In this document: one piece after another, positions 1 through 23,816 of the stretch
Layout: each line of letters opens with the position of its first letter
Numbering within the stretch: the stretch's first letter is position 1
IMG/VR virus record: IMGVR_UViG_3300017697_004551
Span: 1-24,128 of that record
DNA: 24,128 nucleotides
Direction: 5' to 3' (one strand)
DNA from: a virus
Position numbers and translations under genes: made by a program
Notes under the pieces: model-generated
What the model was told of the DNA's origin: nothing
Databases searched by the model: none
What the model saw: the letters and a program-made list of their open reading frames with translations, nothing else

Positions 1-1
1 A

Positions 2-181
2 ATGTACAAACTTACACTTGCAGACTTTAAAGCAGGTAGTTCACCCATAATGGCTGTGTTTGGTATGAAGACAGCACATCTAATGAGTGAAGTTGCCTAC
101 GAAAATGCCAAACTTGACCTCCTGACTGCAAGATACCAATTGCACAAACTACTAGGCATGGTCAATCCTATACTCCAGTAA
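2..181 (+). CDS. TolC-like outer-membrane efflux protein, C-terminal end (5' partial)
   Basis: The frame is open from the window edge and ends at TAA 179-181, giving 59 visible residues; the true start lies upstream. The visible stretch reads as the last helices of a TolC-family outer-membrane factor: an F-x-A-G-S segment, then ENAKLDLLTARYQLHKLLG, which follows the family pattern of an A-x-x-D-L-L-x-A-x-Y-x-L helix ending in L-x-x-L-G. TolC proteins form trimeric outer-membrane channels used by type I secretion and efflux systems. The next two genes resemble the inner-membrane and adaptor parts of such a system, which supports the call. Only the tail is visible, so length and integrity cannot be judged. 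The ATG at position 2 is probably internal. Confidence 0.6.
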   Translation: MYKLTLADFKAGSSPIMAVFGMKTAHLMSEVAYENAKLDLLTARYQLHKLLGMVNPILQ

Positions 182-190
182 TACAATTCA

Positions 191-197
191 TTAAATA
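191..197 (+). promoter_or_regulatory. Putative T4-like late promoter (TTAAATA) before the ABC membrane-domain gene
   Basis: TTAAATA lies 8 bases before the ATG at 206, in the short gap after the TolC-like gene. It matches the core TAAATA of T4 late promoters (TATAAATA) and recurs before five other genes in this window. There is no good Shine-Dalgarno sequence between it and the ATG. Confidence 0.45.
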
Positions 198-205
198 CAG
201 TTATA

Positions 206-961
206 ATGAAAAGTCTAATACGAAATCTATCCAAAGAACCTCAAACAGCGGCCATGCTATTTGTTAGCAGTTTTATCATTGGTATTTGTGCCCTTGCACC
301 TTCGTTGTTTGTGATAATTGTATTGAACAAGTATCTATCGTCGGGTGTGACCGCGACTTTGATAAGCCTAACTATCGGGGCAGTCTTAGCGATGACATTT
401 GAGTTTATTTTTAGACAGAACAGAGGGAGTATGATGACAGGTTTCAACCAACGTTTGTATGATCCTTTGTTGAAAGCATTTACAGAAAAATTTAGATTGG
501 CTGGACAACTTACTTCCCAACAATATAAGAAGTTAGATGGTTCAGGCACAATGATTAAAAATATGAGGACATCTGCCACAACAAGTTGGCTACTTGACTG
601 GCCTTTTGTTTTGATGTTTTTGATTGTGTTGCTGTATATAAATTGGGCCGCGGCAATTATCACTGCAATATTCATGGTGGTGATGTATAATTTAGTCACG
701 TGGAAACGCAATATGACCATGTCGCAGGAGACACAAGGCAACATAGAAATATGTTTAAATGGTTTACAAACAATAGTGATAATGGCAGTTGGTGCCACAA
801 TGATCATTGCAGGTACACTGGACATTGGATTGCTAATTGGCTCTAACATATTGGCGGCAAGAGCATTACAAGGAACCAGCAAGTATGCCAAAGCAATAGA
901 ATTCTCAAAGCAACGTGACCAAGCAGTAGGAGAAATAATTAATTATGTCAAAAGCAAGTAG
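206..961 (+). CDS. Type I secretion ABC exporter, membrane domain only (no ATPase domain)
   Basis: This 251-residue integral membrane protein resembles the transmembrane half of LapB/HlyB-type exporters. Hydrophobic segments lie near residues 16-40, 45-68, 130-160 and 188-215. Family-like stretches include a SWLLDWPFVLMFLIVLLY segment (compare the usual D-x-P-F before a membrane helix) and a late VGATMIIAGTLDIGLLIGSN followed by ILAARAL. Family knowledge: normal proteins continue into a nucleotide-binding domain with Walker A, LSGGQ and Walker B motifs. None of these is present; the protein stops about 35 residues after the last membrane segment. The stretch between the fourth and fifth helices, which normally carries the long cytoplasmic loop contacting the ATPase, also looks strongly shortened (about residues 165-187). 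Its end overlaps the HlyD-like gene by 17 bases. It could be a non-transporting relic, or work with an ATPase encoded elsewhere. Confidence 0.65.
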   Translation: MKSLIRNLSKEPQTAAMLFVSSFIIGICALAPSLFVIIVLNKYLSSGVTATLISLTIGAVLAMTFEFIFRQNRGSMMTGFNQRLYDPLLKAFTEKFRLAGQLTSQQYKKLDGSGTMIKNMRTSATTSWLLDWPFVLMFLIVLLYINWAAAIITAIFMVVMYNLVTWKRNMTMSQETQGNIEICLNGLQTIVIMAVGATMIIAGTLDIGLLIGSNILAARALQGTSKYAKAIEFSKQRDQAVGEIINYVKSK

Positions 962-1646
962 TAAATTCTTTTTAGCGATTACAAGTTTGTTTGTGTTATT
1001 CTTCTTTTGGATGTTATTTGCAAAAGTAGATATTACAACACAGGCAATTGGTATTGTTGTTCCAGAGAAAAATATTACAAAATTAGGCACAATGGTAACA
1101 GGAGAGATTGTTGCTGTAAATTACAAACAAGGAGACATAGTAAAGAAAGGTGACACTATCATAACAATTAATCCAGGAGTGGGTTACGAACCTCGACACA
1201 TAGTTGCAAATATTGATGGAAGAATACAGGAGTTGACTTATAAGAATCCAGGTTCGGTTGTCAAGCAAGGTGACGGACTTGCAATACTTGTTCCCTTAGA
1301 TCAGAAATTAATAGTACAAGGAAGGCTGTTGGTTAAAGACAGAGGTTATGTTGCTGTTGGAATGGAAGCCAAAATAAGATTGGCCAATCAAGATCAATTA
1401 AAATTTGATTCAATCAATGCAAAAATAATTTCTATATCTCCCGATGCTAATCAATCGTCTAATGCGGCCTGGTACGACATAGAACTTGAAATAGATAAAG
1501 AGGTATTTGAAAGTGGAGATATAACTTATACTCTTGTTCCGGGCATTCATGTGTTAGTTTTTATATTAACAGGTGAAAGAACAGTACTGAGCTACATTAC
1601 AACACCTTTCCACAATGGAATAGGACAGGCACTGCAGGAGAGATAA
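945..1646 (+). CDS. HlyD-family membrane fusion protein lacking the helical hairpin
   Basis: The protein has 233 residues; typical HlyD/LapC adaptors have about 400-470. One N-terminal membrane helix lies at about residues 8-26. A first lipoyl half follows (TGEIVAVNYKQGDIVKKGD, about 50-68), then almost directly the second half (ANIDGRIQELTYKNPGSVVK, about 87-107), with only a short NPGVGYEPRH linker where the long periplasmic hairpin should be. The beta-barrel part and the characteristic end are kept: ISISPDA, a PG-x-H-V-x-V segment, and TGERTVLSYITTPF near the C-terminus, which matches the HlyD tail. AGGAGA at 928-933 precedes the ATG at a normal distance, supporting this start. HlyD proteins link an ABC exporter to TolC, and the hairpin normally makes the TolC contact, so this form may not bridge in the usual way. 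The stop overlaps the next start (TAATG). Confidence 0.75.
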   Translation: MSKASSKFFLAITSLFVLFFFWMLFAKVDITTQAIGIVVPEKNITKLGTMVTGEIVAVNYKQGDIVKKGDTIITINPGVGYEPRHIVANIDGRIQELTYKNPGSVVKQGDGLAILVPLDQKLIVQGRLLVKDRGYVAVGMEAKIRLANQDQLKFDSINAKIISISPDANQSSNAAWYDIELEIDKEVFESGDITYTLVPGIHVLVFILTGERTVLSYITTPFHNGIGQALQER

Positions 1647-1774
1647 TGCTGACGTTTTTTTTGATTGGAATTTTTATAGGACTTATTATAAGATGTATGG
1701 CTACTCCTCACAAATCTGAATTAGAACGTTTTGAAGATCCATGGAACTGGACATCATTTGGAGGTGGCGGATGA
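1646..1774 (+). CDS. 42-residue single-span membrane peptide
   Basis: This short gene starts at the ATG inside the HlyD-like stop (TAATG) and ends at TGA 1772-1774, which overlaps the next start (ATGA). AGGAGA at 1636-1641 gives a plausible ribosome site. The peptide begins with a strongly hydrophobic segment (FFLIGIFIGLIIR, about residues 4-16), followed by a charged, tryptophan-containing tail ending in four glycines. Coupling on both sides and the ribosome site support a real gene, although composition alone would not. No family is recognised. It may be a small subunit or regulator of the neighbouring membrane proteins. Confidence 0.55.
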   Translation: MLTFFLIGIFIGLIIRCMATPHKSELERFEDPWNWTSFGGGG

Positions 1775-2130
1775 ACGAAACAAAAAAACTTACAATAAAA
1801 CAAAGATGGCGTAAGGCCTGCACAGCAGACAACATAGTAGATTTAAGTGTTGATGTATTTTTAATTGTATTTGATGTATTAAGTTCACCCATTCTAATAG
1901 TCATGAGGGTGGTTCGTTGGCTTTTAAATAAATTTGTAAATCAACACGTAAAAGGATTCATTAAAAAAATAGTTCATTGGTTTATAGACCATCGAAAGAT
2001 CAGACTTGAAAGAGGACAGAGCATTTTCCGTTACTACTGGTATCTATGGATACTGAGTCCATTTATTTTATTTGGACTATGGATTTTTATTTTAGTCACT
2101 ATAGGAGTTAGACAAGGTTTAGGATCATAA
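1771..2130 (+). CDS. Two-span membrane protein of unknown function
   Basis: The protein has 119 residues. I chose the ATG at 1771 over an upstream in-frame ATG at 1741 because GGAGG (1760-1764) sits correctly before it and it overlaps the preceding stop as ATGA. It has a basic N-terminus, a hydrophobic segment at about residues 22-46, a basic middle (KKIVHWFIDHRKIRLERG), and a second membrane span at about 88-112. No family is recognised. Its position, translationally coupled to the HlyD-like gene upstream and the adenylate cyclase downstream (TAATG at 2128-2132), suggests it works with one of these membrane proteins. Confidence 0.7.
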   Translation: MNETKKLTIKQRWRKACTADNIVDLSVDVFLIVFDVLSSPILIVMRVVRWLLNKFVNQHVKGFIKKIVHWFIDHRKIRLERGQSIFRYYWYLWILSPFILFGLWIFILVTIGVRQGLGS

Positions 2131-3968
2131 TGAAAATATTTACTAGCAGTTTGATGGTTGTAATACTCGCAACCATATTATTTGCCGGAAGATTTTTTGA
2201 TGTCAATCCTGTAGAAACGTTAAGATTAAAAACTTTTGACTATTATCAAAAAGCGTCACCAAGAGATATCACAACTGACAGCGTAGTATTAGTAGAGATT
2301 ACTGAACAAGATTTAAAAAAGTACGGGCAATGGCCATGGCCAAGAAACCTTATTGCAAATTTGCACAACAGGATATATCAATCTGGAGCAGATGTAATTC
2401 AATACAATATTATTTTTGCTGAAAAAGACAGATTTGGCCACGACGAAAAATTTGCACAAAAACTTAAAGGCACAAACACAATAATGATGTACAGTGTCAA
2501 ATCAAACAAAACAGATGGTCCTGTAGCCAAAGTGGGCATTGTAAAAAAAGGCAAACCTGATAAGTTCCTTTTTAGTTTTGAAGGAGTGGTAACAAACATT
2601 CCTGAACTGTTACAATTTGCCAATGGAGCAGGTGTCAACATTATGATCCCTAATATTGATGGAACTGTCAGACAGATCCCTTTATTTGTAAACACAGACA
2701 TTGGAACATTACCAAATCAAGTATTGGACACTTTGCGTATTATAAACAAAAGTTCTAGATACAAAATTGTTGCCAACCCAAAAGGAATCCAAACTGTATT
2801 TGTAAGCAAGAAGAAAAGTTTTGACACAGACAAAAACGGTATGTTCAATATTAATTTTGCAGATGTAAAAACAATCAAAACGTATTCTGTAAGTGATTTG
2901 ATCAGCAACCAAATAAACTTAAAAAACAAAATAGTAATTGTGGGACTGAATTCGGCTGGTTTAAGTTATCTCAAAGACACACCTTTGGGACTAATGACTG
3001 ATGCAAAAATAAGTGCTCAGGCCATAGAAACTGCACTGACGGAAACACAATTGATAAGGAATGGTAATACCAATTTGATTGAACTTGTAGGTGTTTTGGC
3101 CTTGGGTATATTCCTCGTGCTCACTATACCCAGGTTGGGTATTACCAGCACTGTAGTAGTGTATTTGACACTTTTAACGGCTATGATATTCGTAAGTGTG
3201 TCCTTATATAACAACCATAATTATCTACTTGATGTGTCCTTTGCAACGGTGTTTATTACCATTATTTGGGGGCATTTGGTATTCAACAGTTTTGCTAAAC
3301 AGTTCAGATTGAGGCAACAAATTAAGAAACAGTTTGAGCATTACTTAGACCCAAGAATGGTTAAAAAACTACAAAACGACCCAGGTTTGTTGAAATTAGG
3401 TGGTGAAACAAAGACAATGACTTTTCTATTTTCTGACATACGAGGCTTCACTCCTATAGCAGAAAAATACAAAGGAAATCCTCAAGCACTTACAAAATTG
3501 ATTAATAGATTTCTCACACGCATGACAAATATTATTATAAAAAATGGTGGCACTATAGACAAGTTCATGGGTGACTGTATCATGGCATTTTGGAATGCAC
3601 CTTTGGATACGCCGGGCCATGAAAAACTTGCTGTCAAAACAGCTTTGCAAATGCAAAAAGAATTAAAAAAATTAAACAGAGAATTAAAGAAAGAGAAATT
3701 GCCACAGATTAATATTGGAATAGGAATCAACACAGGTGAAGCACTTGTAGGTAACATGGGCAGTGATCAAAGGTTTGATTACAGCGTTATAGGTGATGCT
3801 GTAAATCTTGCCTCAAGATTAGAAAGCAGTTCCAAAGAATTAAAGAAAACTTTGGTAATTGGTGAAAAGACAAAGAAAAAATGTAAAGGAATGCGTTTTA
3901 ACTCCCTTGGCACAATACAGGTCAAAGGCAAAACAGAAGATATTAAGGTGTTTACAATTAGTGGTTAA
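2130..3968 (+). CDS. CHASE2-domain class III adenylate cyclase
   Basis: This membrane-bound sensor cyclase of 612 residues is predicted to make cAMP from ATP. It has an N-terminal membrane helix (about 3-20), an extracytoplasmic CHASE2 domain (about 30-300, including QWPWPR and the usual late KIVIVG segment), three membrane helices (about 315-385), a short linker, and the catalytic domain (about 425-612). Catalytic residues appear intact: metal-binding Asp436 (FSDIRGFT) and Asp482 (MGDCIMAFW), Asn559 and Arg563 (VNLASRLE) for transition-state binding, and Lys478, the adenine-selecting position. Ser552 sits at the second base-selecting position, where bacterial adenylate cyclases often have Thr or Asp. 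Length and domain order match bacterial homologues. The start overlaps the previous stop (TAATG), so it belongs to the secretion-like series. Guanylate cyclase activity is less likely because of Lys478. Confidence 0.93.
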   Translation: MKIFTSSLMVVILATILFAGRFFDVNPVETLRLKTFDYYQKASPRDITTDSVVLVEITEQDLKKYGQWPWPRNLIANLHNRIYQSGADVIQYNIIFAEKDRFGHDEKFAQKLKGTNTIMMYSVKSNKTDGPVAKVGIVKKGKPDKFLFSFEGVVTNIPELLQFANGAGVNIMIPNIDGTVRQIPLFVNTDIGTLPNQVLDTLRIINKSSRYKIVANPKGIQTVFVSKKKSFDTDKNGMFNINFADVKTIKTYSVSDLISNQINLKNKIVIVGLNSAGLSYLKDTPLGLMTDAKISAQAIETALTETQLIRNGNTNLIELVGVLALGIFLVLTIPRLGITSTVVVYLTLLTAMIFVSVSLYNNHNYLLDVSFATVFITIIWGHLVFNSFAKQFRLRQQIKKQFEHYLDPRMVKKLQNDPGLLKLGGETKTMTFLFSDIRGFTPIAEKYKGNPQALTKLINRFLTRMTNIIIKNGGTIDKFMGDCIMAFWNAPLDTPGHEKLAVKTALQMQKELKKLNRELKKEKLPQINIGIGINTGEALVGNMGSDQRFDYSVIGDAVNLASRLESSSKELKKTLVIGEKTKKKCKGMRFNSLGTIQVKGKTEDIKVFTISG

Positions 3969-4862: not shown

Positions 4863-5174
4863 ATGAAATCGAAACATTCGAGAACTCTGGTAAAAACTAT
4901 CAGCTGGCGAATTTTAGCAACCAGCGATACGTTTTTAATTGCATGGATTATTACAGGAAGATTTGACCTTGCTGGTGCTATTGCAGGTATTGAAGTTTTG
5001 ACAAAAATGATTCTATATTATTTTCATGAAAGAGCATGGAATAAAATTAGTTGGGGCAAGAAACAAATTGAATTGCCTACACAAATATTTCCATATGATG
5101 ACTGGAAAATTACTAGATTACAAAATTATCTTAACAAAAAAGGACATAGTAGGTTAGCGGGGTTATTGAAATGA
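4863..5174 (+). CDS. DUF2061 small membrane protein
   Basis: The protein has 103 residues. Its N-terminal half matches the DUF2061 pattern: R-x-L-x-K-T-I-S-W-R-I-x-A-T-x-D-T near residues 7-23, a hydrophobic stretch, then ITGRFDLAGAIAGIEVLTKM and YYFHERAWNKISWG (about 52-65). DUF2061 proteins are predicted small inner-membrane proteins of unknown role that occur in many bacteria and marine phages. The C-terminal 35 residues are polar and outside the usual domain. The gene starts 5 bases after a consensus promoter and leads an overlapping series with the next three genes. Confidence 0.85.
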   Translation: MKSKHSRTLVKTISWRILATSDTFLIAWIITGRFDLAGAIAGIEVLTKMILYYFHERAWNKISWGKKQIELPTQIFPYDDWKITRLQNYLNKKGHSRLAGLLK

Positions 5175-5859: not shown

Positions 5860-6065
5860 GCGGACAGAGAAAATGGCTTAAACTTTGGGCAAGAACAGTT
5901 GGAATGCCCATGGGTAAAACAGACAAAGACAAGCCAAAATTTTTACCTATCACACAAGACGATGTAAAAAAGGCTTTGGCGTTTAGAACTTTTTGGATAT
6001 TACTACACATAACAACCTGCCTATTGATCATTTTGGGCAACGGCAGAGTTTTAAGCTGGTGGTAG
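5856..6065 (+). CDS. Small single-span membrane protein, unknown
   Basis: The protein has 69 residues when started at ATG 5856, which overlaps the exonuclease stop as ATGA. An upstream in-frame start at 5802 would lie inside the exonuclease gene and is not preferred. The N-terminus is basic and tryptophan-containing (MSGQRKWLKLWARTVG), the middle is polar (KTDKDKPKFLP), and a membrane span lies at about 44-62, ending LSWW. No family is recognised. Confidence 0.65.
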   Translation: MSGQRKWLKLWARTVGMPMGKTDKDKPKFLPITQDDVKKALAFRTFWILLHITTCLLIILGNGRVLSWW

Positions 6066-6072
6066 TTAAATA
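6066..6072 (+). promoter_or_regulatory. Putative T4-like late promoter (TTAAATA) before the SET gene
   Basis: TTAAATA directly follows the stop at 6063-6065 and lies 10 bases before the ATG at 6083. An AAAGGAA ribosome site sits between, as expected for a short-leader late transcript. Confidence 0.45.
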
Positions 6073-6082
6073 AAGGAATATT

Positions 6083-6403
6083 ATGTATAGACCATTACCA
6101 GACGGAATAACAGTCAGAGATTCAAGTGTGCAAGGCCTTGGATTGTTTGCAACCAAAGACTTTAACGCTGATGTGATACTAGGCATTGTACACGTGATGA
6201 ATAAAAATTTTCCACACGGTAGTATAAGGACAGCTTTAGGAGCCTTTTACAATCATTCTGAAAATCCTAATTGTAAAAATGTTGCAGGATTCTGGCATCA
6301 ACTTCCTGTTAGATATCTAATGACAGTAAGAGCAATCAAAGTAGGTGAAGAGCTAACTGCGAATTACACCCTTTACAATGATTTCAAAGATGACAGAAAT
6401 TAA
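6083..6403 (+). CDS. SET-domain protein (putative protein lysine methyltransferase)
   Basis: The protein has 106 residues, essentially a minimal SET domain. Visible motifs are G-L-G-L-F-A-T-K-D-F (about 18-27), which begins SET folds, AFYNHSENPNC (54-64), equivalent to the cofactor-binding N-H-S-x-x-P-N-C motif, and GEELTANY (88-95), equivalent to G-E-E-L-T-x-x-Y with the catalytic tyrosine at about 95. SET enzymes transfer methyl groups from S-adenosylmethionine to protein lysines. There is no separate substrate-recognition domain, so a target cannot be named. It has an AAGGA ribosome site and a putative late promoter. Confidence 0.85.
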   Translation: MYRPLPDGITVRDSSVQGLGLFATKDFNADVILGIVHVMNKNFPHGSIRTALGAFYNHSENPNCKNVAGFWHQLPVRYLMTVRAIKVGEELTANYTLYNDFKDDRN

Positions 6404-6752
6404 GTATTATAATATTCAAGAGCTCTACACTATTAAAGATTACAAAATAAAACACAAAAAAAATCCGGTTACCAAATGGATACAACTTTCTTGTGTCTAC
6501 AAGATCAAGATCGGCAATAATATTGTTCATGTAGGCAGATCAGACACTTGTAAAAAGCACGGCGGAGCGGAAAAGGTACGAAAAGCCATTGTAAATTTAC
6601 TAGGAGTAAATGAACACAATCCAAGTGTGCCTGAAACAAAATACTGGAAAGAAATTAGGTTTAAATATAGACCAAGCTCGCTTAATATTAGAATAGGAAT
6701 AATAAAAACAAATGCAATCAAAAAAATTTATCTACAAGAAATCAAAAAGTAA
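6378..6752 (+). CDS. Basic protein of unknown function, possibly GIY-YIG-like
   Basis: The protein has 124 residues if started at ATG 6378, which overlaps the SET gene by 26 bases; the in-frame ATG at 6390 (120 residues) is an alternative. It is rich in lysine and isoleucine. A CVYKIKIGNNIVHVGRS segment (about 39-55) is faintly like the G-I-Y ... Y-V-G-R-S start of GIY-YIG nucleases, but the spacing and the catalytic Arg/Glu cannot be confirmed, so I do not call a nuclease. Its last 14 codons lie in a copy of the sequence that begins the HIT gene at 9859, read in another frame, so its C-terminus may have been created by a rearrangement. Confidence 0.6.
   Translation: MISKMTEIKYYNIQELYTIKDYKIKHKKNPVTKWIQLSCVYKIKIGNNIVHVGRSDTCKKHGGAEKVRKAIVNLLGVNEHNPSVPETKYWKEIRFKYRPSSLNIRIGIIKTNAIKKIYLQEIKK
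6704..6744 (+). repeat. Left copy of an imperfect 41-base direct repeat
   Basis: This matches 9851-9891 at 37 of 41 bases by eye, including the non-simple core ATGCAATCAAAAAAA and the end TATCTACAAGAAA. The left copy falls in the end of the gene at 6378-6752; the right copy falls at the start of the HIT gene. Read in the HIT frame, the left copy would encode MQSKKFIYKK, close to the HIT start MQSKKTIYKK. Confidence 0.75.
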
Positions 6753-8734: not shown

Positions 8735-9847
8735 ATGAATGACAAAAAAACTCCATTTTGCAAGGTTCCTTTTCTAATAGGATTCACAACAGATGATACT
8801 CACTATCGTGATTGTTGTGCTAAACAACCTCATCTAGCAAGTGACCATGGCCAGGACTTTAAGCAATGGTGGAACAGCGCCGAGTTGAACAAGTTCAGGC
8901 AAAGGCTAATAGAAGCCAAGGAGCATCCTCCTGAATGTTCTTCTTGCAAAATTGCCGAACAAAATGAAGGTAATAATTTTAGTAGTTTTAGGACCGCGGT
9001 CAACAAATGGGAAAACACAGATCATACACACCCAGCCGGATGGAATATAATTTTTGGAAATACTTGCAACCTAGCGTGTTGGAGTTGTAACGAAAATTCA
9101 AGTAGTGTGATATTTCAACACAAAAAAAAAGCAGGATTGGTATCAGGCAAAGACTTATCTGAAAGCAATTTTAAAAAATCCTGGTCCGACCTAAGAAAAA
9201 ATATTCTTAAAAGTTACGATCATCATGAAACAGTGAACCTAACACTGTTAGGTGGTGAGCCGTTGTACAATAAAAGTGTGATCGAGTTTTTAAAAGAGCT
9301 AACCGACATGGATCTTGCGAGTAGAACTAGGTTAGAATTCCACACCAACGGTACTGTGTATCCATACAAAGTTTTTCCAAGAGATAAAAAATCTCCATGG
9401 CAACATGTTTGCACGTTCATAAGCCTCGATGCGGCCGGGCCGTATGCTGAATGGTTGCGTTACGGATGTAATTGGAGCAAGGTAGACAAAGTAGTGGATT
9501 CCCTTATAGCATTATCGCATTACATAGAAATACAGTGTACCCTAACAGTCTTGAATATCAATCAACTGCAGAATTTATCCTCTTACGCACAAAGTAAAAA
9601 TGTTAGGTTACGAATCTCAACAACTGCTGAGCCAGATTTTATGGCACTAGAGAACTGGGACCTTCTAAAGGAATCGTTGTTGGTAAACAAGCAGTATGAC
9701 CAATTCCAGATATACTACGATTTAATAGGAACCACCCCTAAAACAGGGTCAAGCAATCGGCTTAAAGACTACATTCGTAAATTTGATGGTATCCGTAAAC
9801 CCTTGAGTGATTTTGATAAAACATTTGCAAACAAAGTAGGGTGGTAG
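8735..9847 (+). CDS. Twitch-type radical SAM protein
   Basis: The protein has 370 residues from ATG 8735. An upstream in-frame TTG at 8657 is less likely because the family begins shortly before the F-C-x-x-P segment, here PFCKVPF. The radical SAM cluster motif is Cys111-x3-Cys115-x2-Cys118 (NTCNLACWSCNE). Extra cysteines upstream (Cys9, Cys27, Cys28, Cys68, Cys71, the last two in PPECSSCKIAEQNEG) are typical of the twitch-domain subgroup and may bind an additional cluster or metal. LTLLGGEPLYN (about 205-215) matches the conserved G-G-E-P motif. Such proteins cleave S-adenosylmethionine to start radical chemistry; the substrate is unknown. It is the third gene of the putative cassette, and its stop lies just before the right repeat. 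Confidence 0.88.
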   Translation: MNDKKTPFCKVPFLIGFTTDDTHYRDCCAKQPHLASDHGQDFKQWWNSAELNKFRQRLIEAKEHPPECSSCKIAEQNEGNNFSSFRTAVNKWENTDHTHPAGWNIIFGNTCNLACWSCNENSSSVIFQHKKKAGLVSGKDLSESNFKKSWSDLRKNILKSYDHHETVNLTLLGGEPLYNKSVIEFLKELTDMDLASRTRLEFHTNGTVYPYKVFPRDKKSPWQHVCTFISLDAAGPYAEWLRYGCNWSKVDKVVDSLIALSHYIEIQCTLTVLNINQLQNLSSYAQSKNVRLRISTTAEPDFMALENWDLLKESLLVNKQYDQFQIYYDLIGTTPKTGSSNRLKDYIRKFDGIRKPLSDFDKTFANKVGW

Positions 9848-9850
9848 TGA

Positions 9851-9891
9851 AAAAACAGATGCAATCAAAAAAAACTATCTACAAGAAACCA
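9851..9891 (+). repeat. Right copy of the imperfect 41-base direct repeat
   Basis: This matches 6704-6744 at 37 of 41 bases by eye. It covers the start of the HIT gene (ATG 9859). The two copies bracket the genes at 6753-9847, so this segment could have been gained between an original copy and its duplicate, or could be lost by recombination between them. Confidence 0.75.
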
Positions 9892-10260
9892 CATGAACCC
9901 GTAGACCATTACGAAGAGTCTGTTTGGTTGAGCAACGATACCCCTTTGTTTGAGAATGAGTTTACAGCAGTATTCAAAGACAAATATCCTTGCACAAAAG
10001 GACACGTACTTTTTATTCCTAAGAAGAGAACAGCCGAATGCATAGGAGAGGCCTACAAACTGGCTTACTACTGTGGCGATGAATGGATTAAAGAAGGCAA
10101 GATGGATGGATTTAACGTGGGAATGAATATCGGAGAGTGTGCAGGACAGACCATCATGTGGCCACACATACATCTTATACCAAGACGAAATGGTGATTCA
10201 AAAGACATAGGCGGCATAAGACATGCACACCCGGGTGCAGATCACTATAAGTATTATTAA
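9859..10260 (+). CDS. HIT-family nucleotide hydrolase/transferase with altered histidine triad
   Basis: The protein has 133 residues from ATG 9859; GTG codons at 9841 and 9847 are possible earlier starts. HIT hallmarks are visible: an F-T-A-V-F-K-D-K-Y-P strand, KGHVLFIPKKR, GFNVGMNIGECAGQTI, and the end of the active site (WPHIHLIPRRNGD). In the usual H-x-H-x-H triad the first histidine is replaced by tryptophan, while the second and third, including the normal nucleophile position, are kept. HIT proteins act on nucleoside phosphates and phosphoramidates. The Trp change may alter specificity. It follows the radical SAM gene closely and overlaps the next start (TAATG). Confidence 0.85.
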   Translation: MQSKKTIYKKPHEPVDHYEESVWLSNDTPLFENEFTAVFKDKYPCTKGHVLFIPKKRTAECIGEAYKLAYYCGDEWIKEGKMDGFNVGMNIGECAGQTIMWPHIHLIPRRNGDSKDIGGIRHAHPGADHYKYY

Positions 10261-10904
10261 TGACCAAATATGTAACTATTATAGGCAACGGAGAAAGTCG
10301 CAGAGGATTTGATCTCCAACCTTTAAAAATATTTTCTACTGTAGTTGGATGTAATGCACAATTTCGAGATTACAATTTTGATTATTTTGTGTGTGCTGAT
10401 AGACATATGTGTCAAGAAGCAGTCAACACAGTTGGCAAAAACACAATAATTTACACTAGAGAAAAATGGGTTACACAATTTTCCATGTGGCCAAATGTAA
10501 AAAAATTACCCGATCTTCCATATGAGGGCGACAAAAGACCAGACGAGCCTTTTCACTGGGGTACTGGACCTTATGCTGGAGTGGTTGCACTAACATTTAA
10601 ACCCAAAGCTATTTTCATGCTAGGATTTGATCTATGGCCATTGCCGGGCACAGATAAAAAAAAAGACAACAACATTTACAGGGATAGTAAAGGTTACACC
10701 TATATCAAAAGACCTGTAGATCCAAAATATTGGATTCATCAATTTGATAAACTGATGGAACTATCACCTGATACACGATGGATTGTGGTAAATTATGAAG
10801 GGTGGGAAATGCCTAAAGAGTGGAGCCAACACAAGAATGTTTTCCAAGAAAGTCTTGAAGGTATGGCCAAATTTGTGAATAAACAGTTGACACAACCTAA
10901 ATAA
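10260..10904 (+). CDS. GNGESR-family protein 1 (putative glycan-related, DUF115/glycosyltransferase-like)
   Basis: The protein has 214 residues and its start shares a base with the HIT stop. The N-terminus carries IIGNGESRRGFDL (about 7-19), a Rossmann-like nucleotide-binding loop, followed by VVGCNAQFRDYNFDYFVCAD. Later segments include GTGPYAGVVAL and IFMLGFDLWP. The same layout (GNGESR, then GCNA-x-Y/F-R-D, then a G-S/T-G helix and a F-D-x-L/W strand) appears in the protein at 16054-16830, so the two are paralogues. Similar proteins in phages and bacterial surface-polysaccharide loci are annotated as DUF115-like or glycosyltransferase-related; the reaction is not established here. Confidence 0.7.
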   Translation: MTKYVTIIGNGESRRGFDLQPLKIFSTVVGCNAQFRDYNFDYFVCADRHMCQEAVNTVGKNTIIYTREKWVTQFSMWPNVKKLPDLPYEGDKRPDEPFHWGTGPYAGVVALTFKPKAIFMLGFDLWPLPGTDKKKDNNIYRDSKGYTYIKRPVDPKYWIHQFDKLMELSPDTRWIVVNYEGWEMPKEWSQHKNVFQESLEGMAKFVNKQLTQPK

Positions 10905-18722: not shown

Positions 18723-21700
18723 ATGGCTCAAGAACTAATCAATATAGGTGTGTCCGCTAACGATGGATCTGGTGATCCAATAAACGTTGCTGGCCAAAAA
18801 ATTAATAATAATTTTGAGGAAATTTTTGCTTTTCCGCGTGTGCAATCTCACATTGGCACAAAAAACAACAACATCGTATCACAATTATCAAATGAAGATA
18901 TTGTTCTAAAACCCAGTGGCACAGGCTCTATTGTTTTTCCTAACATACGAATCAACGACAATAACATTGAAACTATTCAAACCAACAGTGATTTAAAAAT
19001 AATACCTTCTGGATCAGGTTCTGTTGTAATCAACGGTTTAGGATTTGCCGGCACCACTATTACTGCAACTGATTCCAGTATAGTCAATATCAATGAGAAT
19101 GTAATTGTAGATGGCACACTGAGTGCCTCTGGGGCGTTCACTTTTCCACTAGCAATGGCCTTAGGATCTACTTTAAGCACTGGTGGCCTAGCCACACTAT
19201 CATCTTTGACCATAACTGGCGCCACAACGATGGGAAATTTAAATATTGAGAATTTGTCATTCATTGACGGCACTATTTCCACTACTTCAAACGCAGATCT
19301 ACACCTTACTCCAGGCGGAACTGGTTCAGTGATCATAGACAATTTAACCATAGATTCAAATATTAATATCACAGACAACAAAATTCAAGCCACAGCAACA
19401 AATTCAGAATTAGTCCTGTCAGCTAGTGGAACAGGAGACATTGTTGCAGGTGGCATCAGAATACATGGAACTACTTTAACATCAGATGATTCATCAAGAA
19501 TAGAGATCAATGAAGCACTGACTATCAATTCAAGTATGTCAATCGCAGGCAACGAAATAAAACCTACCACAACAAATTCAGAGTTGGTACTATCAGCTAG
19601 TGGAACAGGAGACATTGTTGCAGGTGGCATCAGAATACATGGAACTACTTTAACATCAGATGATTCATCAAGAATAAAAATCAATGAGGCAGTTACTATA
19701 GAATCGAGCATATCAATCGCAGACAACAAAATTCAACTCCTACAATCAAATGCGGAATTAGTCCTGTCAGCCAGTGGCACAGGAGACGTGGTTTTGAGTG
19801 CTATCAGAATACATGGCACTACTTTAACCTCAGATGACTCATCAGAGATAGCGATCAATGAAGGACTAACTGTAGATTCAAACATCAGCATATCAGAAAA
19901 TCAAATTCAAACCACAGCATCAAATTCAGATCTACTGTTGTTGACTGCAGGAACAGGAGCAGTTAAAATTACCAAAGCAGACATCGATGGCGGTACCGTT
20001 GACGATGTAGTCATTGGTGGTGAAGTTCCGGCGGCGGGTACATTTTCAACCATAACTCTTTCTCCGACCGACACAGCATCATTATCTTCATCAGGAGTTA
20101 AAATCACTGACAACACAATTACATCCACTCAAAGCAATGATGATTTAGAATTTTTAGGCAATGGCACAGGCACTGTGAGAGTAAACCAATTCTACCTGCC
20201 CAATGCTGACGGAAATATAGGACAACTTATACGAACTGATGGGTCAAAGGTGCTAGATTGGTTCACATCACCGATACTGTTCAGTACATCTAACCTACAA
20301 GATGTACAAGGCACAATTTCTTTTTCCTCTGAAGTCACGGTAGATCATGTCACAGCCACTGGTGCTCATGAGTTGATACAATCAAGTGCCTCTGTAATAA
20401 ATTCATTCGCGGTAGCAAAATATGACAGTGCATGGTACGTGGTTCTAACACGAGATGATGATGCCGCAAATTTTGAAATTGCAAAATATTCAGTTGTTCA
20501 CGATAACACAAATGCGTTTATAACCACTTCAAATCTAGTTAAATCTGATACCAACAATTACATCACTGCCACTGCAGGCATTTCCGGTGGTTTTGTTAGA
20601 GTATCCGGCGCAGGTGCCGGTACTGATATGAATTTGCAGTTCTACAGAATAGGACTAGGAGATGATGATTCTACTGGTTATGTCAGTGAAGATGCCACAA
20701 ATGCTGTAGCTAAGATCAACACCGATATTGATTCTGCCATTGAAACACTAGACTCATGGGCCAAAGCAGATTTCAGGGGAGCAAAGTATTTCATATCAGT
20801 AAATGATGGGGCAAAAACAGAATTAGGAAACATAGAATGTCTAGTGGTCCATGATGGCACCAATGCTTTTGTGAACACTTACAACATTGTGAATACCGGC
20901 AACAATGATCTTCTAACAATCACAGCTGACATTGACAGCAATAATGTGCGACTTAGAGCTTCAGGTAACACTCCAAATTTAAGAGTACACATGTATAGAA
21001 TTTTACTGGCAGACGACGAAAGCTCATCAACAGGAACCAATGTCAATGTGGTAGGAGCAACCACAGTCAGCACCATATCACAAACAACAATTGACACAAA
21101 CAGTTTTAGAGGCACTGCCAAACCAGATTTCAGTAGCACAAAGACAGCCAGCACTTTTGCCACAACAGATTTTGATAGTGTTTGGTATCACCTGATAAAC
21201 AGAGATCAAACTAATGGTGAATTCAACATGGAAAAATTATCGGTCATGCATGGAACAACCACAGACGGAAGCACCCAAGACGCTTTTATCACAAGTTCAA
21301 GTGTGGTTAAAAGTGGAGTCCACAATGATGTGATGAGTCATGATGTTGACATTGATGGGTCCAATGTAAGATTAAGAACCACAGGAGTCAGTGATGGATC
21401 AACAACGATTAGTAACAGTATGACCTATTATGCACTAGGACTTGGATCAAACACAGCAGATGCCACATCTGGAAACATAGGCACAGAAGCAGGTATCATT
21501 CTAGGAGGAAACAACGAAACACAGATAGACCATGTAATTGCCGAAGGCACAACACAGGGCAGTTTAGCTGAAGCAAGAACAGGTGCAGAATTTACTGCTA
21601 GTCAATTCAACGGTGCATTGTATCATATCGTGACCAAGGACGTGGCCAACGGCAGTTTCGAGACACAGAAAGTTTCTGTGCTACACAATTTCAATAACGC

Positions 21701-23816
21701 TTTCATTACATCATCAGCAGTGACTAGATCAGATGTGGGTGACACCCATCCAACGTTTGATGCGGACATGGTGACAGCGGATGACAGTGCATCCAAAATA
21801 AGATTAAGAATGACAGACGGTGATGGTTCATCCGTCACACCATCAAACACAATGGCTTACTACAGGATAGGAATCGGAACCGATGACTCCACAGGCTACA
21901 TTGGAGAACTAGGACTAGTTCATGACATCATGCATGTTGATATAATAGGTAGCAGTGTTGTTAACCTTGATGCATTTACAAAGGCTCCACACGCCGCGGC
22001 AAAATATTTCATAAATGTAAGGAATCAATCAACAGGCGAAACCAGCAACATAGAAGCACTGGTCACGCACGACAACACAAATGCTTACATAACGTCATAC
22101 AACGAGCACTTCTCAGGCAACAACAGCCTCATCACACTGACAGCGGACATAAGTGGCACCAGTGTTAGGTTGAGAGGTTCTGCCACGTCAGGTGCCAGCA
22201 CAAAGGTCATTGTCAACAGGATAGTGGCATTCGCGGACACAGAATCAGACGAGGCAACCACTGACAGCACAAGGAAGGTGATTGGAAACGTCACTGCATC
22301 AAGCTCGGCAACAACCTTTGACACTTTCCAATCCAGTGACACTGATGCTGTACATTATGTGGTGTGTGGACAGAACGGTGCCAATGAGAAATTTATTTGT
22401 GAGGCCACTGTGGTAACAGATGGCACAGGAGTTTTTATAGCCCAAGGTCCCAATGTCAGCACCAAAGGCACAGACATGTTGGAACTTACTGCTACTATTT
22501 CGGCAGGCACTGTCAGTGTCAAAGCAAGTTCAACGTCAGGTGCTTCAACAGCAGTGAGTGCCTATGCAGTAAGATTAAAAGCACCTGCAACATCCGCTAA
22601 AACCATGGACAGTTGGGCTCATGCCAGTTACAGAGGTGCCAAGTATTACATCAGTGCGGAGGACACTGACAATGGAAACGTCAGTAACATTGAAGCACTG
22701 GTTGTACACAACGGCAGTGAAGCATTTATAACTGTGTCCAATGAACATTTTTCAAACACCAGACTTGTGACTCTTACAGCAACTCTCAGCGGTTCAACTG
22801 TTTCAATTGATGCCACACCACAAAGTGGAGATATAAGAATAAAATTTTATAGAATTAGATTGGCAGACAATGAAAGTGATGCCACAGGCACGGACGCAAA
22901 CACTATCGGGGCAGTCACAGTTGCAAGTGCCGCCACAGACATAGACACATTTGAAGACACGCAACACACAGGTGCTCATTATGTCATGGTTGCAAACAAT
23001 TCCACAGAGGGAGCGGCTAGTATATCAGAATTTACAGTTGTCACAGATGGCGTAGATGCCAGTGTGGCACAAGGTCCTGAGGTCAGCACGAAAGGCACAG
23101 GACAAATATTTTTAACAGCGGCACACAACGGTTCATCAACTGTAACAATAAGTGCATCTTCAACAAGTGGAGGCTCAACAACGGTCAATGCATATAGAAT
23201 TCATATGTTGCGACCAGAGGCAACATCGACAACAACTATTGATAGTTTCGTAAGTGGCACTTACAATGGTGCTTATTATGTTGTGGTTGCCAAAAAAGTA
23301 GGGGCCGCTGACAGTCAAATTTCAGAAATACAAGCAGTAACAAATGGCAGTGACACTTTTATAAACAGCGATCCTATTGTTTCTTCAACTGGTAGTAGTT
23401 TAGTAAACTATACAGCAGGCAACACAGGATCCACAGCAGAAATAAGAGCATTAGCGGCAGATGGAACAAGTTCATTCACTGTAAATGCTTATAGAATCAA
23501 TTTAGCTAGAGGGGCTGGAAGTGCTTCTTCACAGCAAGTGTTGGATTCTTTCAGTGTGTCTTCATTCCGAGGTGCAAAATATACTGTTCAGGCAAGTGAC
23601 TCTGTCGGAGGCAATTTTGAAATTTTTGATGTAACTGTGATGCACGATGGAACAACTGCTTTTATCAGTGAGGGAGCTAGAATAGGAAACAGTACTCCAT
23701 CAGATCTTTTCACTCTTACTGCGGATATAGATAGTGGGAACGTAAGACTGCTTGGTGCAATAAGTAATACAAATGATCATGTGATCACCGCGGTTAAAAG
23801 ACTTATAAACGTATAA
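18723..23816 (+). CDS. Giant modular fibre-type structural protein, 1697 residues
   Basis: The N-terminal motif is related to the neighbouring fibres but degenerate (INIGVSANDGSGDPINVA, then QKINNNFEEIF). Residues ~55-510 are TGTGS-type beta repeats, including four 58-residue units at about 220-450. From about residue 549 to the end there are roughly ten modules of about 115 residues, each reading S/F ... A-K/W-Y-x-V ... E-x-x-V-x-H-D-x-T-N-A-F-I ... L-T-A-D-I-x-x-x-x-V-R-L-x-x-x-x ... Y-R-I. One such module ends the 598-residue protein. Modules 5-8 are more similar to one another in parts (for example SSTSGAST in modules 6 and 8). The overall design suggests a long virion fibre with repeated domains, possibly for host or glycan contact. 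No enzyme motif was seen. Confidence 0.85.
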   Translation: MAQELINIGVSANDGSGDPINVAGQKINNNFEEIFAFPRVQSHIGTKNNNIVSQLSNEDIVLKPSGTGSIVFPNIRINDNNIETIQTNSDLKIIPSGSGSVVINGLGFAGTTITATDSSIVNINENVIVDGTLSASGAFTFPLAMALGSTLSTGGLATLSSLTITGATTMGNLNIENLSFIDGTISTTSNADLHLTPGGTGSVIIDNLTIDSNINITDNKIQATATNSELVLSASGTGDIVAGGIRIHGTTLTSDDSSRIEINEALTINSSMSIAGNEIKPTTTNSELVLSASGTGDIVAGGIRIHGTTLTSDDSSRIKINEAVTIESSISIADNKIQLLQSNAELVLSASGTGDVVLSAIRIHGTTLTSDDSSEIAINEGLTVDSNISISENQIQTTASNSDLLLLTAGTGAVKITKADIDGGTVDDVVIGGEVPAAGTFSTITLSPTDTASLSSSGVKITDNTITSTQSNDDLEFLGNGTGTVRVNQFYLPNADGNIGQLIRTDGSKVLDWFTSPILFSTSNLQDVQGTISFSSEVTVDHVTATGAHELIQSSASVINSFAVAKYDSAWYVVLTRDDDAANFEIAKYSVVHDNTNAFITTSNLVKSDTNNYITATAGISGGFVRVSGAGAGTDMNLQFYRIGLGDDDSTGYVSEDATNAVAKINTDIDSAIETLDSWAKADFRGAKYFISVNDGAKTELGNIECLVVHDGTNAFVNTYNIVNTGNNDLLTITADIDSNNVRLRASGNTPNLRVHMYRILLADDESSSTGTNVNVVGATTVSTISQTTIDTNSFRGTAKPDFSSTKTASTFATTDFDSVWYHLINRDQTNGEFNMEKLSVMHGTTTDGSTQDAFITSSSVVKSGVHNDVMSHDVDIDGSNVRLRTTGVSDGSTTISNSMTYYALGLGSNTADATSGNIGTEAGIILGGNNETQIDHVIAEGTTQGSLAEARTGAEFTASQFNGALYHIVTKDVANGSFETQKVSVLHNFNNAFITSSAVTRSDVGDTHPTFDADMVTADDSASKIRLRMTDGDGSSVTPSNTMAYYRIGIGTDDSTGYIGELGLVHDIMHVDIIGSSVVNLDAFTKAPHAAAKYFINVRNQSTGETSNIEALVTHDNTNAYITSYNEHFSGNNSLITLTADISGTSVRLRGSATSGASTKVIVNRIVAFADTESDEATTDSTRKVIGNVTASSSATTFDTFQSSDTDAVHYVVCGQNGANEKFICEATVVTDGTGVFIAQGPNVSTKGTDMLELTATISAGTVSVKASSTSGASTAVSAYAVRLKAPATSAKTMDSWAHASYRGAKYYISAEDTDNGNVSNIEALVVHNGSEAFITVSNEHFSNTRLVTLTATLSGSTVSIDATPQSGDIRIKFYRIRLADNESDATGTDANTIGAVTVASAATDIDTFEDTQHTGAHYVMVANNSTEGAASISEFTVVTDGVDASVAQGPEVSTKGTGQIFLTAAHNGSSTVTISASSTSGGSTTVNAYRIHMLRPEATSTTTIDSFVSGTYNGAYYVVVAKKVGAADSQISEIQAVTNGSDTFINSDPIVSSTGSSLVNYTAGNTGSTAEIRALAADGTSSFTVNAYRINLARGAGSASSQQVLDSFSVSSFRGAKYTVQASDSVGGNFEIFDVTVMHDGTTAFISEGARIGNSTPSDLFTLTADIDSGNVRLLGAISNTNDHVITAVKRLINV
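19381..20076 (+). repeat. Four-unit tandem repeat, 174-base period
   Basis: Units start near 19381, 19555, 19729 and 19903 and keep the reading frame (58 residues each: E-L-V-L-S-A-S-G-T-G-D ... IRIHGTTLTSDDSS ... INE). Units 1 and 2 share an 84-base identical block (19419-19502 and 19593-19676), pointing to recent duplication or gene conversion; units 3 and 4 have diverged. The repeat lies inside the 1697-residue fibre gene. Confidence 0.9.
20370..23816 (+). repeat. Array of about ten ~115-residue protein modules
   Basis: Module starts lie near 20384, 20741, 21141, 21560, 21955, 22300, 22600, 22920, 23225 and 23535 (approximate). Each has an aromatic AKY/AWY/AHY strand, a VVHDGTNAF-like strand, and a final YRI/YRL strand. 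They are diverged at DNA level and recognisable mainly as protein. Confidence 0.8.

Follow-up and report, generated by a model that had tools for sequence, protein, structure and literature searches.

In type I secretion systems (T1SSs), the ABC protein has no periplasmic extension. RTX proteins are secreted substrates whose folding outside the cell is driven by calcium, and LapA-type adhesins are held half-exported in the outer-membrane channel. Pelagiphages and methylophages have been reported to carry a curli (T8SS) cassette together with FecR and adenylate cyclase genes (PMC7029224, PMC9004378, PMC9599517); type I secretion, TolC and HlyD are nowhere mentioned in these three papers. A periplasmic adaptor without a hairpin has been described in a working pump, BesA of Borrelia burgdorferi (PDB 4KKS, 4KKT and 4KKU; PMC3807786). 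The sequence comparisons presented here support a phage-borne, T1SS-derived gene set that is coordinately pared down, under purifying selection and retained for use. No phage T1SS set of this kind was described in the open-access papers searched, in agreement with the original prediction.

The window is the complete stretch of DNA analysed, the 24,128-base viral contig IMGVR_UViG_3300017697_004551, and all cassette genes in it lie on the plus strand. Three consecutive genes had been predicted to match the parts of a T1SS, and all three are present as described: the C-terminal end (59 codons) of an outer-membrane protein of the TolC family (1..181), a T1SS ABC transmembrane domain of 251 aa (206..961) and an HlyD-type periplasmic adaptor of 233 aa (945..1646), the start of the HlyD gene overlapping the end of the ABC gene by 17 nt. 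They are followed by a possible 42-aa ORF with a single TM segment (1646..1774; called from the reading frame and hydropathy only), a 129-aa two-TM protein of unknown family with no Pfam match (1741..2130) and, as the last gene of the cassette, a 612-aa CHASE2-domain class III adenylate/guanylate cyclase (2130..3968). The gene overlaps suggest one operon. Genes further downstream include phage tail and baseplate proteins. Neither RNA families nor tRNAs were detected in the window, and megablast of its first 10 kb against phage records gave no match. A DUF2061 membrane protein (4863-5174, E=9e-26) is also found near the cassette in loci L040 and L061. The 1697-aa protein encoded at 18723-23816, after a baseplate/tail-fibre gene, gave one weak PHROG match (E=0.00075) and is probably a tail fibre.

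The TolC tail was assigned by alignment with its relatives and by a match to OEP (PF02321) that covers positions 137-187 of the 187-position profile at E=0.0016, below the cut-off. The ATG at position 2 lies within the TolC coding sequence, the aligned relatives reading ...NDEMYKLTLADF... at that place, so the TolC gene runs off the 5' end of the window. Full-length TolC genes were found upstream in the relatives, where the outer-membrane channel of a T1SS is represented in full. These proteins have 523-617 aa, match TIGR01844 type_I_sec_TolC (E=4e-36), contain two OEP repeats and are extended at the N-terminus by up to ~200 aa of charged sequence that resembles a coiled coil.

The ABC protein matched the NCBIfam profiles TIGR03375 type_I_sec_LssB (LssB/LapB-type, E=2.5e-19) and TIGR01842 PrtD (E=1e-11), and each profile was matched by all 14 of the aligned ABC relatives. 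Neither match reaches the curated cut-off for a whole protein, which is what a partial family member should show; Pfam ABC_membrane gave no match with the single ABC sequence. The protein is thus a T1SS-type ABC transmembrane domain, homologous to that part of an ABC transporter only. The DNA of the relatives covers TIGR03375 positions 140-304 and ~361/371-444 of 696, which locates three missing parts: the N-terminal C39-like domain (positions 1-139), absent from the nearest cellular relatives too; about 60 residues (profile ~305-365) that include the second (TM4-TM5) intracellular coupling loop; and the whole nucleotide-binding domain. Alignment with full-length cellular ABC proteins agrees with these boundaries. 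The predicted shortening of the coupling loop was therefore a real deletion, and the predicted lack of ATPase motifs held for all six frames of the window, in which no Walker A or LSGGQ motif and no frame completing the ATPase domain were found. Relaxation of the first intracellular loop in the phage proteins was also considered and rejected, as cellular homologues are equally variable there. Searches with the ABC sequence alone gave no match in phage records or viral contigs, and the relatives were found with an alignment as the query.

The adaptor belongs to the T1SS subfamily of HlyD proteins, matching TIGR01843 type_I_hlyD at E=5e-43 (below the whole-protein cut-off owing to the missing hairpin) and HlyD_3 at E=2e-17. 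As predicted, it retains the TM helix, both lipoyl halves, the barrel and the C-terminal TGERTVLSY motif, with residues 85-233 aligning to TIGR01843 positions 272-422, and it has lost the long alpha-hairpin that reaches TolC. The hairpin of ~185-190 residues in cellular adaptors (417-446 aa) is reduced to ~7 residues, GVGYEPR. The AlphaFold2 model of HlyD (pLDDT 78) likewise has no hairpin helices, and its top Foldseek match was the hairpin-less BesA (E=5e-11). Structure prediction was less informative for the ABC protein: its AlphaFold model had low confidence (pLDDT 57) and serves here as weak support only, with HlyB (8dck) as the top Foldseek match. One viral relative, L017:1861-2721, has an HlyD with a hairpin stub of ~55 residues downstream of a motor-less ABC protein of the full 251 aa, and is possibly an intermediate of hairpin loss.

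The shortened set recurs, with identical boundaries, in ~20 marine viral contigs from many samples. HlyD is encoded in 25 viral loci and the ABC protein in 20, on many separate contigs. Among the extracted sequences the ABC proteins have 247-251 aa and the HlyD proteins, L017 excepted, 230-241 aa; no ABC or HlyD frame contains an internal stop. Pairwise dN/dS was mostly 0.03-0.25; in the closest pairs it was 0.03-0.24 for ABC and 0.03-0.25 for HlyD. The set was found in metagenomic contigs only, which might point to a relic or an assembly artefact; the same short forms in the viral relatives, their identical boundaries, intact frames and low dN/dS refute such an origin, which we regard as hardly credible. 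Recurrent shortening under purifying selection is neither decay nor misassembly, and it agrees with the original proposal in so far as the trimming is not random and the set is retained for use.

We also searched 289 bacterial genomes of the class of a metagenome-assembled genome (MAG), 'Rickettsiales bacterium MED657', with the ABC alignment. More than 80 matches were listed, in frames of 470-886 aa, and among these matches short ABC frames (255 aa) occurred only in phage contigs binned into the MAG. The motor-less ABC protein thus seems to be characteristic of phages. The MAG itself was rejected as a bacterial carrier of the short forms, as its matches are binned phage contigs with the same phage neighbours; these two cassette contigs (L061 and L062; NZHE01000025.1 and NZHE01000018.1) represent either contamination or a hint of the host.

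Where relatives have upstream sequence, the cassette reads giant protein, TolC, ABC, HlyD, (small membrane protein) and CHASE2-adenylate cyclase. The gene for the giant protein lies outside the window, and its presence here is deduced from L003 and L005, whose HlyD proteins are 88-89% identical to that of the window. In the relatives this protein has 1005-1696 aa, with an N-terminal FecR domain (FecR-like, with no retention-module call in the profile search), long coiled coils and cadherin domains (E=5e-30 in L040). It has no signal peptide or hydrophobic N-terminus and contains 0-1 cysteine. Its C-termini fall into two classes. The first ends ...DTILDF...DxIDIS...TGTADQVTVVT, and L059, L008, L015 and L058 belong to the class with RTX and PF08548 (in L059, RTX PF00353 at E=5e-8 and serralysin C-terminal PF08548 at E=4e-9); the second ends ...ESALISEVVVxx and gave no RTX match. 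The missing signal peptide, the few cysteines, the conserved C-termini and, in the first class, the RTX repeats point to a T1SS-type adhesin substrate with a predicted C-terminal secretion signal. Tail fibres also contain long coiled coils and Ig/cadherin-like domains, and weak matches to tail-protein PHROGs lie inside the coiled coil, so the giant protein might instead be a virion (tail-fibre) component beside membrane genes of unrelated role. We consider this very improbable, given that the FecR domain has homologues in the curli cassettes, that RTX and serralysin C-terminal domains occur, and that the operon is shared with TolC and HlyD, a linkage repeated in bacteria.

Of the remaining genes, the 129-aa ORF, which may start at an in-frame ATG at 1771, was found in L002, L004, L005, L009, L015, L016 and L018 and is missing or replaced in L040, L048, L059 and L061. 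The window cyclase matched CHASE2 at E=2e-41 and Guanylate_cyc at E=8e-24. Its homologues in Pelagibacter phage HTVC008M (37.6% identity) and methylophage Melnitz (32.3%) both adjoin curli genes. The FecR domain of the giant protein matched phrog_37870 and is 36% identical to an HTVC008M protein; in both phages the FecR and cyclase homologues lie next to CsgF, CsgG and curlin-like genes. Upstream sequence of 4.5 kb or more was available for 29 cyclase loci: 23 had curli genes, five had the T1SS-like set, one had neither and none had both. CsgG (PF03783) is absent from the eight cassette contigs examined and present in HTVC008M and Melnitz. In the contigs checked, the two cassettes are separate. 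A common genomic slot for them was not supported, since the 172-kb contig shares with HTVC008M only some replication and metabolic genes; as the similarity is patchy we claim no close kinship, only a parallel gene set.

Full-length counterparts of the phage genes occur in bacteria. The 289 genomes were searched with the cyclase (a tblastn-type search) and with the ABC profile, and the positions were compared by hand. An ABC relative and a CHASE2-adenylate cyclase (AC) lay within ~7 kb on the same contig in at least 14 genomes (G013, G022, G042, G057, G092, G134, G156, G171, G179, G182, G255, G279, G295 and G301). Locus L224 reads ABC (603 aa), HlyD (427 aa), AC (738 aa), TolC (441 aa) and FecR/RTX giant; L219 reads RTX giant, ABC (551 aa), HlyD (417 aa) and AC (753 aa); and L220 and L221 both read ABC-HlyD-AC-TolC. 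The bacteria with these intact operons are apparently Alphaproteobacteria, a class taken from the Rickettsiales title of the MAG. Because the intact cellular loci hold the same genes, the phage set is a cut-down version of a bacterial T1SS operon that serves a FecR/RTX adhesin and includes a CHASE2 cyclase. No paper describing this linkage in bacteria was found in the literature searched. The MAG also contains a T1SS operon of the order TolC-ABC-HlyD-CHASE2-AC (L079), in which, by eye, the HlyD (8854-10581, minus strand) has an N-terminal cyclic-nucleotide-binding-like domain and a small cNMP-binding-like protein (6027-6467, minus strand) is encoded beside it; this operon is possibly a cAMP-regulated type I secretion system.

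The original prediction had considered that the phage proteins poison the exporter of the host by mixed assembly. Truncated half-transporters are natural dominant negatives, and the candidate hosts have host-like T1SS genes, so that the ABC membrane domain and HlyD might interfere with host T1SSs or TolC pumps. A poison, however, would not need its own TolC, a giant substrate and a cyclase. The MAG with the two binned cassette contigs encodes full T1SS ABC proteins of 719 and 529 aa, to which the phage ABC protein is 21-23% identical, little for co-assembly. We therefore hold poisoning to be improbable.

A motor might be supplied in trans, either by a T1SS ABC protein of the host (through mixed dimers or a borrowed inner-membrane machine) or by a phage gene outside the contigs, which would make the set an ATP-driven split adhesin exporter. 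The substrate is of the T1SS type and the two ABC proteins of the MAG could serve; however, the link to this host is weak, as it comes from binning. In the three longest contigs that carry the cassette (137, 148 and 172 kb), the only ABC_tran match above the cut-off was SufC beside SufE. This candidate, in G001, was rejected as the ATPase because it adjoins SufE. Weak PF00005 matches in other contigs are partial P-loops below the cut-off, and the one in the 172-kb contig G303 (95676-95786) overlaps an ORF related to the HTVC008M clamp loader. SufC aside, no T1SS nucleotide-binding domain was found in the ABC protein, the window or these three contigs, which are partial genomes: none has a recognisable terminase, gp23 was absent in the two tested, and they are probably parts of larger genomes. 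None of the cassette contigs is a complete genome, which leaves room for a phage ATPase elsewhere. That the coupling loop has gone together with the ATPase makes a simple split exporter less likely, as this loop docks on the opposite nucleotide-binding domain and a split ABC protein would need it. In our judgement an ATPase in trans is unlikely.

The large contigs have further features of their own. G001, G003 and G303 (137-172 kb) carry tail genes and no recognisable terminase, which may reflect genomes of unusual size or packaging genes that have diverged strongly. In G001 the phage-borne SufE and SufC genes for Fe-S cluster assembly (L026:1056-3460) adjoin a TonB-dependent-receptor-like gene. 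By eye, G303 appears to encode parts of a TctA/TctC tripartite transporter, a PstS-like protein, ClpX and ClpA (L188, 4593-7068; L187, 53242-54195; L190, 41863-43146; and L192, 104554-106860).

The three genes thus occupy the middle of a cassette that derives from a bacterial operon for adhesin secretion. Our preferred reading, which we put forward tentatively and rate as somewhat short of probable, is that the phage uses this cassette to place a giant adhesin of its own on the surface of the infected cell. We infer that the cargo is the giant protein, that the conduit needs no ATPase of its own and that the cyclase serves the same programme. The infected cell would display the giant FecR/RTX adhesin, and the extended TolC, the HlyD without its hairpin and the ABC membrane domain without its motor would form a conduit or an anchor. 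With no dedicated ATPase, the adhesin might be moved, for example, by the membrane potential as it enters and by calcium-driven folding of the repeats outside; alternatively, it could stay partway through the outer-membrane channel, like LapA-type adhesins. The cyclase would adjust host cAMP for the same programme. The whole could be a functional analogue of the pelagiphage curli, FecR and cyclase cassette, acting in cell aggregation, in 'sibling capture' or in masking against superinfection.

All known T1SSs depend on ATP hydrolysis, which would make export by an ABC protein without a motor unprecedented; and, as T1SS ABC proteins have no periplasmic extension, an HlyD that lacks the hairpin would need some novel means of reaching TolC. 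The motor-less ABC protein and arm-less HlyD may form a passive or ratcheted conduit, may be an anchor that holds the adhesin, or may work with an ATPase in trans. A more specific proposal, that the set is an ATP-independent T1SS offshoot which exports or anchors the giant adhesin by membrane potential or calcium-driven folding, and so is the type I counterpart of the curli cassette, seems to us doubtful, though it deserves consideration. The other function originally suggested, a passive pore, would be a channel spanning the envelope or a single membrane that acts in lysis timing or uptake, roles that have been suggested for the CsgGF pore which phages encode in related cassettes (PMC7029224, PMC9004378). 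Loss of both the motor and the coupling loop fits such a channel. However, a pore leaves the conserved T1SS-type giant protein and the retained adaptor and TolC unexplained, and a hairpin-less adaptor makes a poor sealed conduit; we consider it quite unlikely. The retained T1SS-derived set that had been predicted therefore stands, and the giant FecR/RTX protein and the CHASE2 cyclase make surface display likelier than either exporter poisoning or a bare pore.

Phage-borne secretion of surface fibres would then not be limited to curli, and an unrelated route would share the same FecR and CHASE2-cyclase partners. This suggests that infected marine bacteria wearing a phage-encoded surface protein are a recurrent strategy. 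The set is also a natural experiment on type I secretion, in which the motor, the coupling loop and the hairpin were lost together and the rest has remained under selection; if it still exports, it asks how much T1SS export needs ATP. The results also point to a bacterial association between FecR/RTX-adhesin T1SS operons and CHASE2 adenylate cyclases that the papers searched do not describe.

Four known systems resemble the cassette most. The bacterial FecR/RTX-T1SS-CHASE2-AC operons (L219, L224, L220, L221 and L079) have the same five parts, with the order giant-ABC-HlyD-AC in L219, but their ABC proteins have 551-603 aa with Walker A and their HlyD proteins 417-437 aa with the hairpin. The RTX-adhesin T1SSs of the LapB/LssB and PrtD types (TIGR03375, TIGR01842, TIGR01843, TIGR01844) share the three component families and an adjoining RTX-type giant without a signal peptide, and their cellular operons share neighbouring genes with the phage cassette; they differ in that the phage ABC protein lacks the ATPase and the second coupling loop, the phage HlyD lacks the hairpin and the phage TolC has a charged N-terminal extension. 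BesA, the structure that the phage HlyD model matches best, is likewise an adaptor without the alpha-hairpin, but it serves an RND pump, whereas the phage HlyD falls in the T1SS subfamily by sequence. The curli cassette also combines phage genes for surface-fibre secretion with a homologous FecR domain and a CHASE2-adenylate cyclase; in the phages described here, TolC, ABC, HlyD and a giant adhesin replace CsgG, CsgF and the curlins, and the two sets do not co-occur in the contigs checked.
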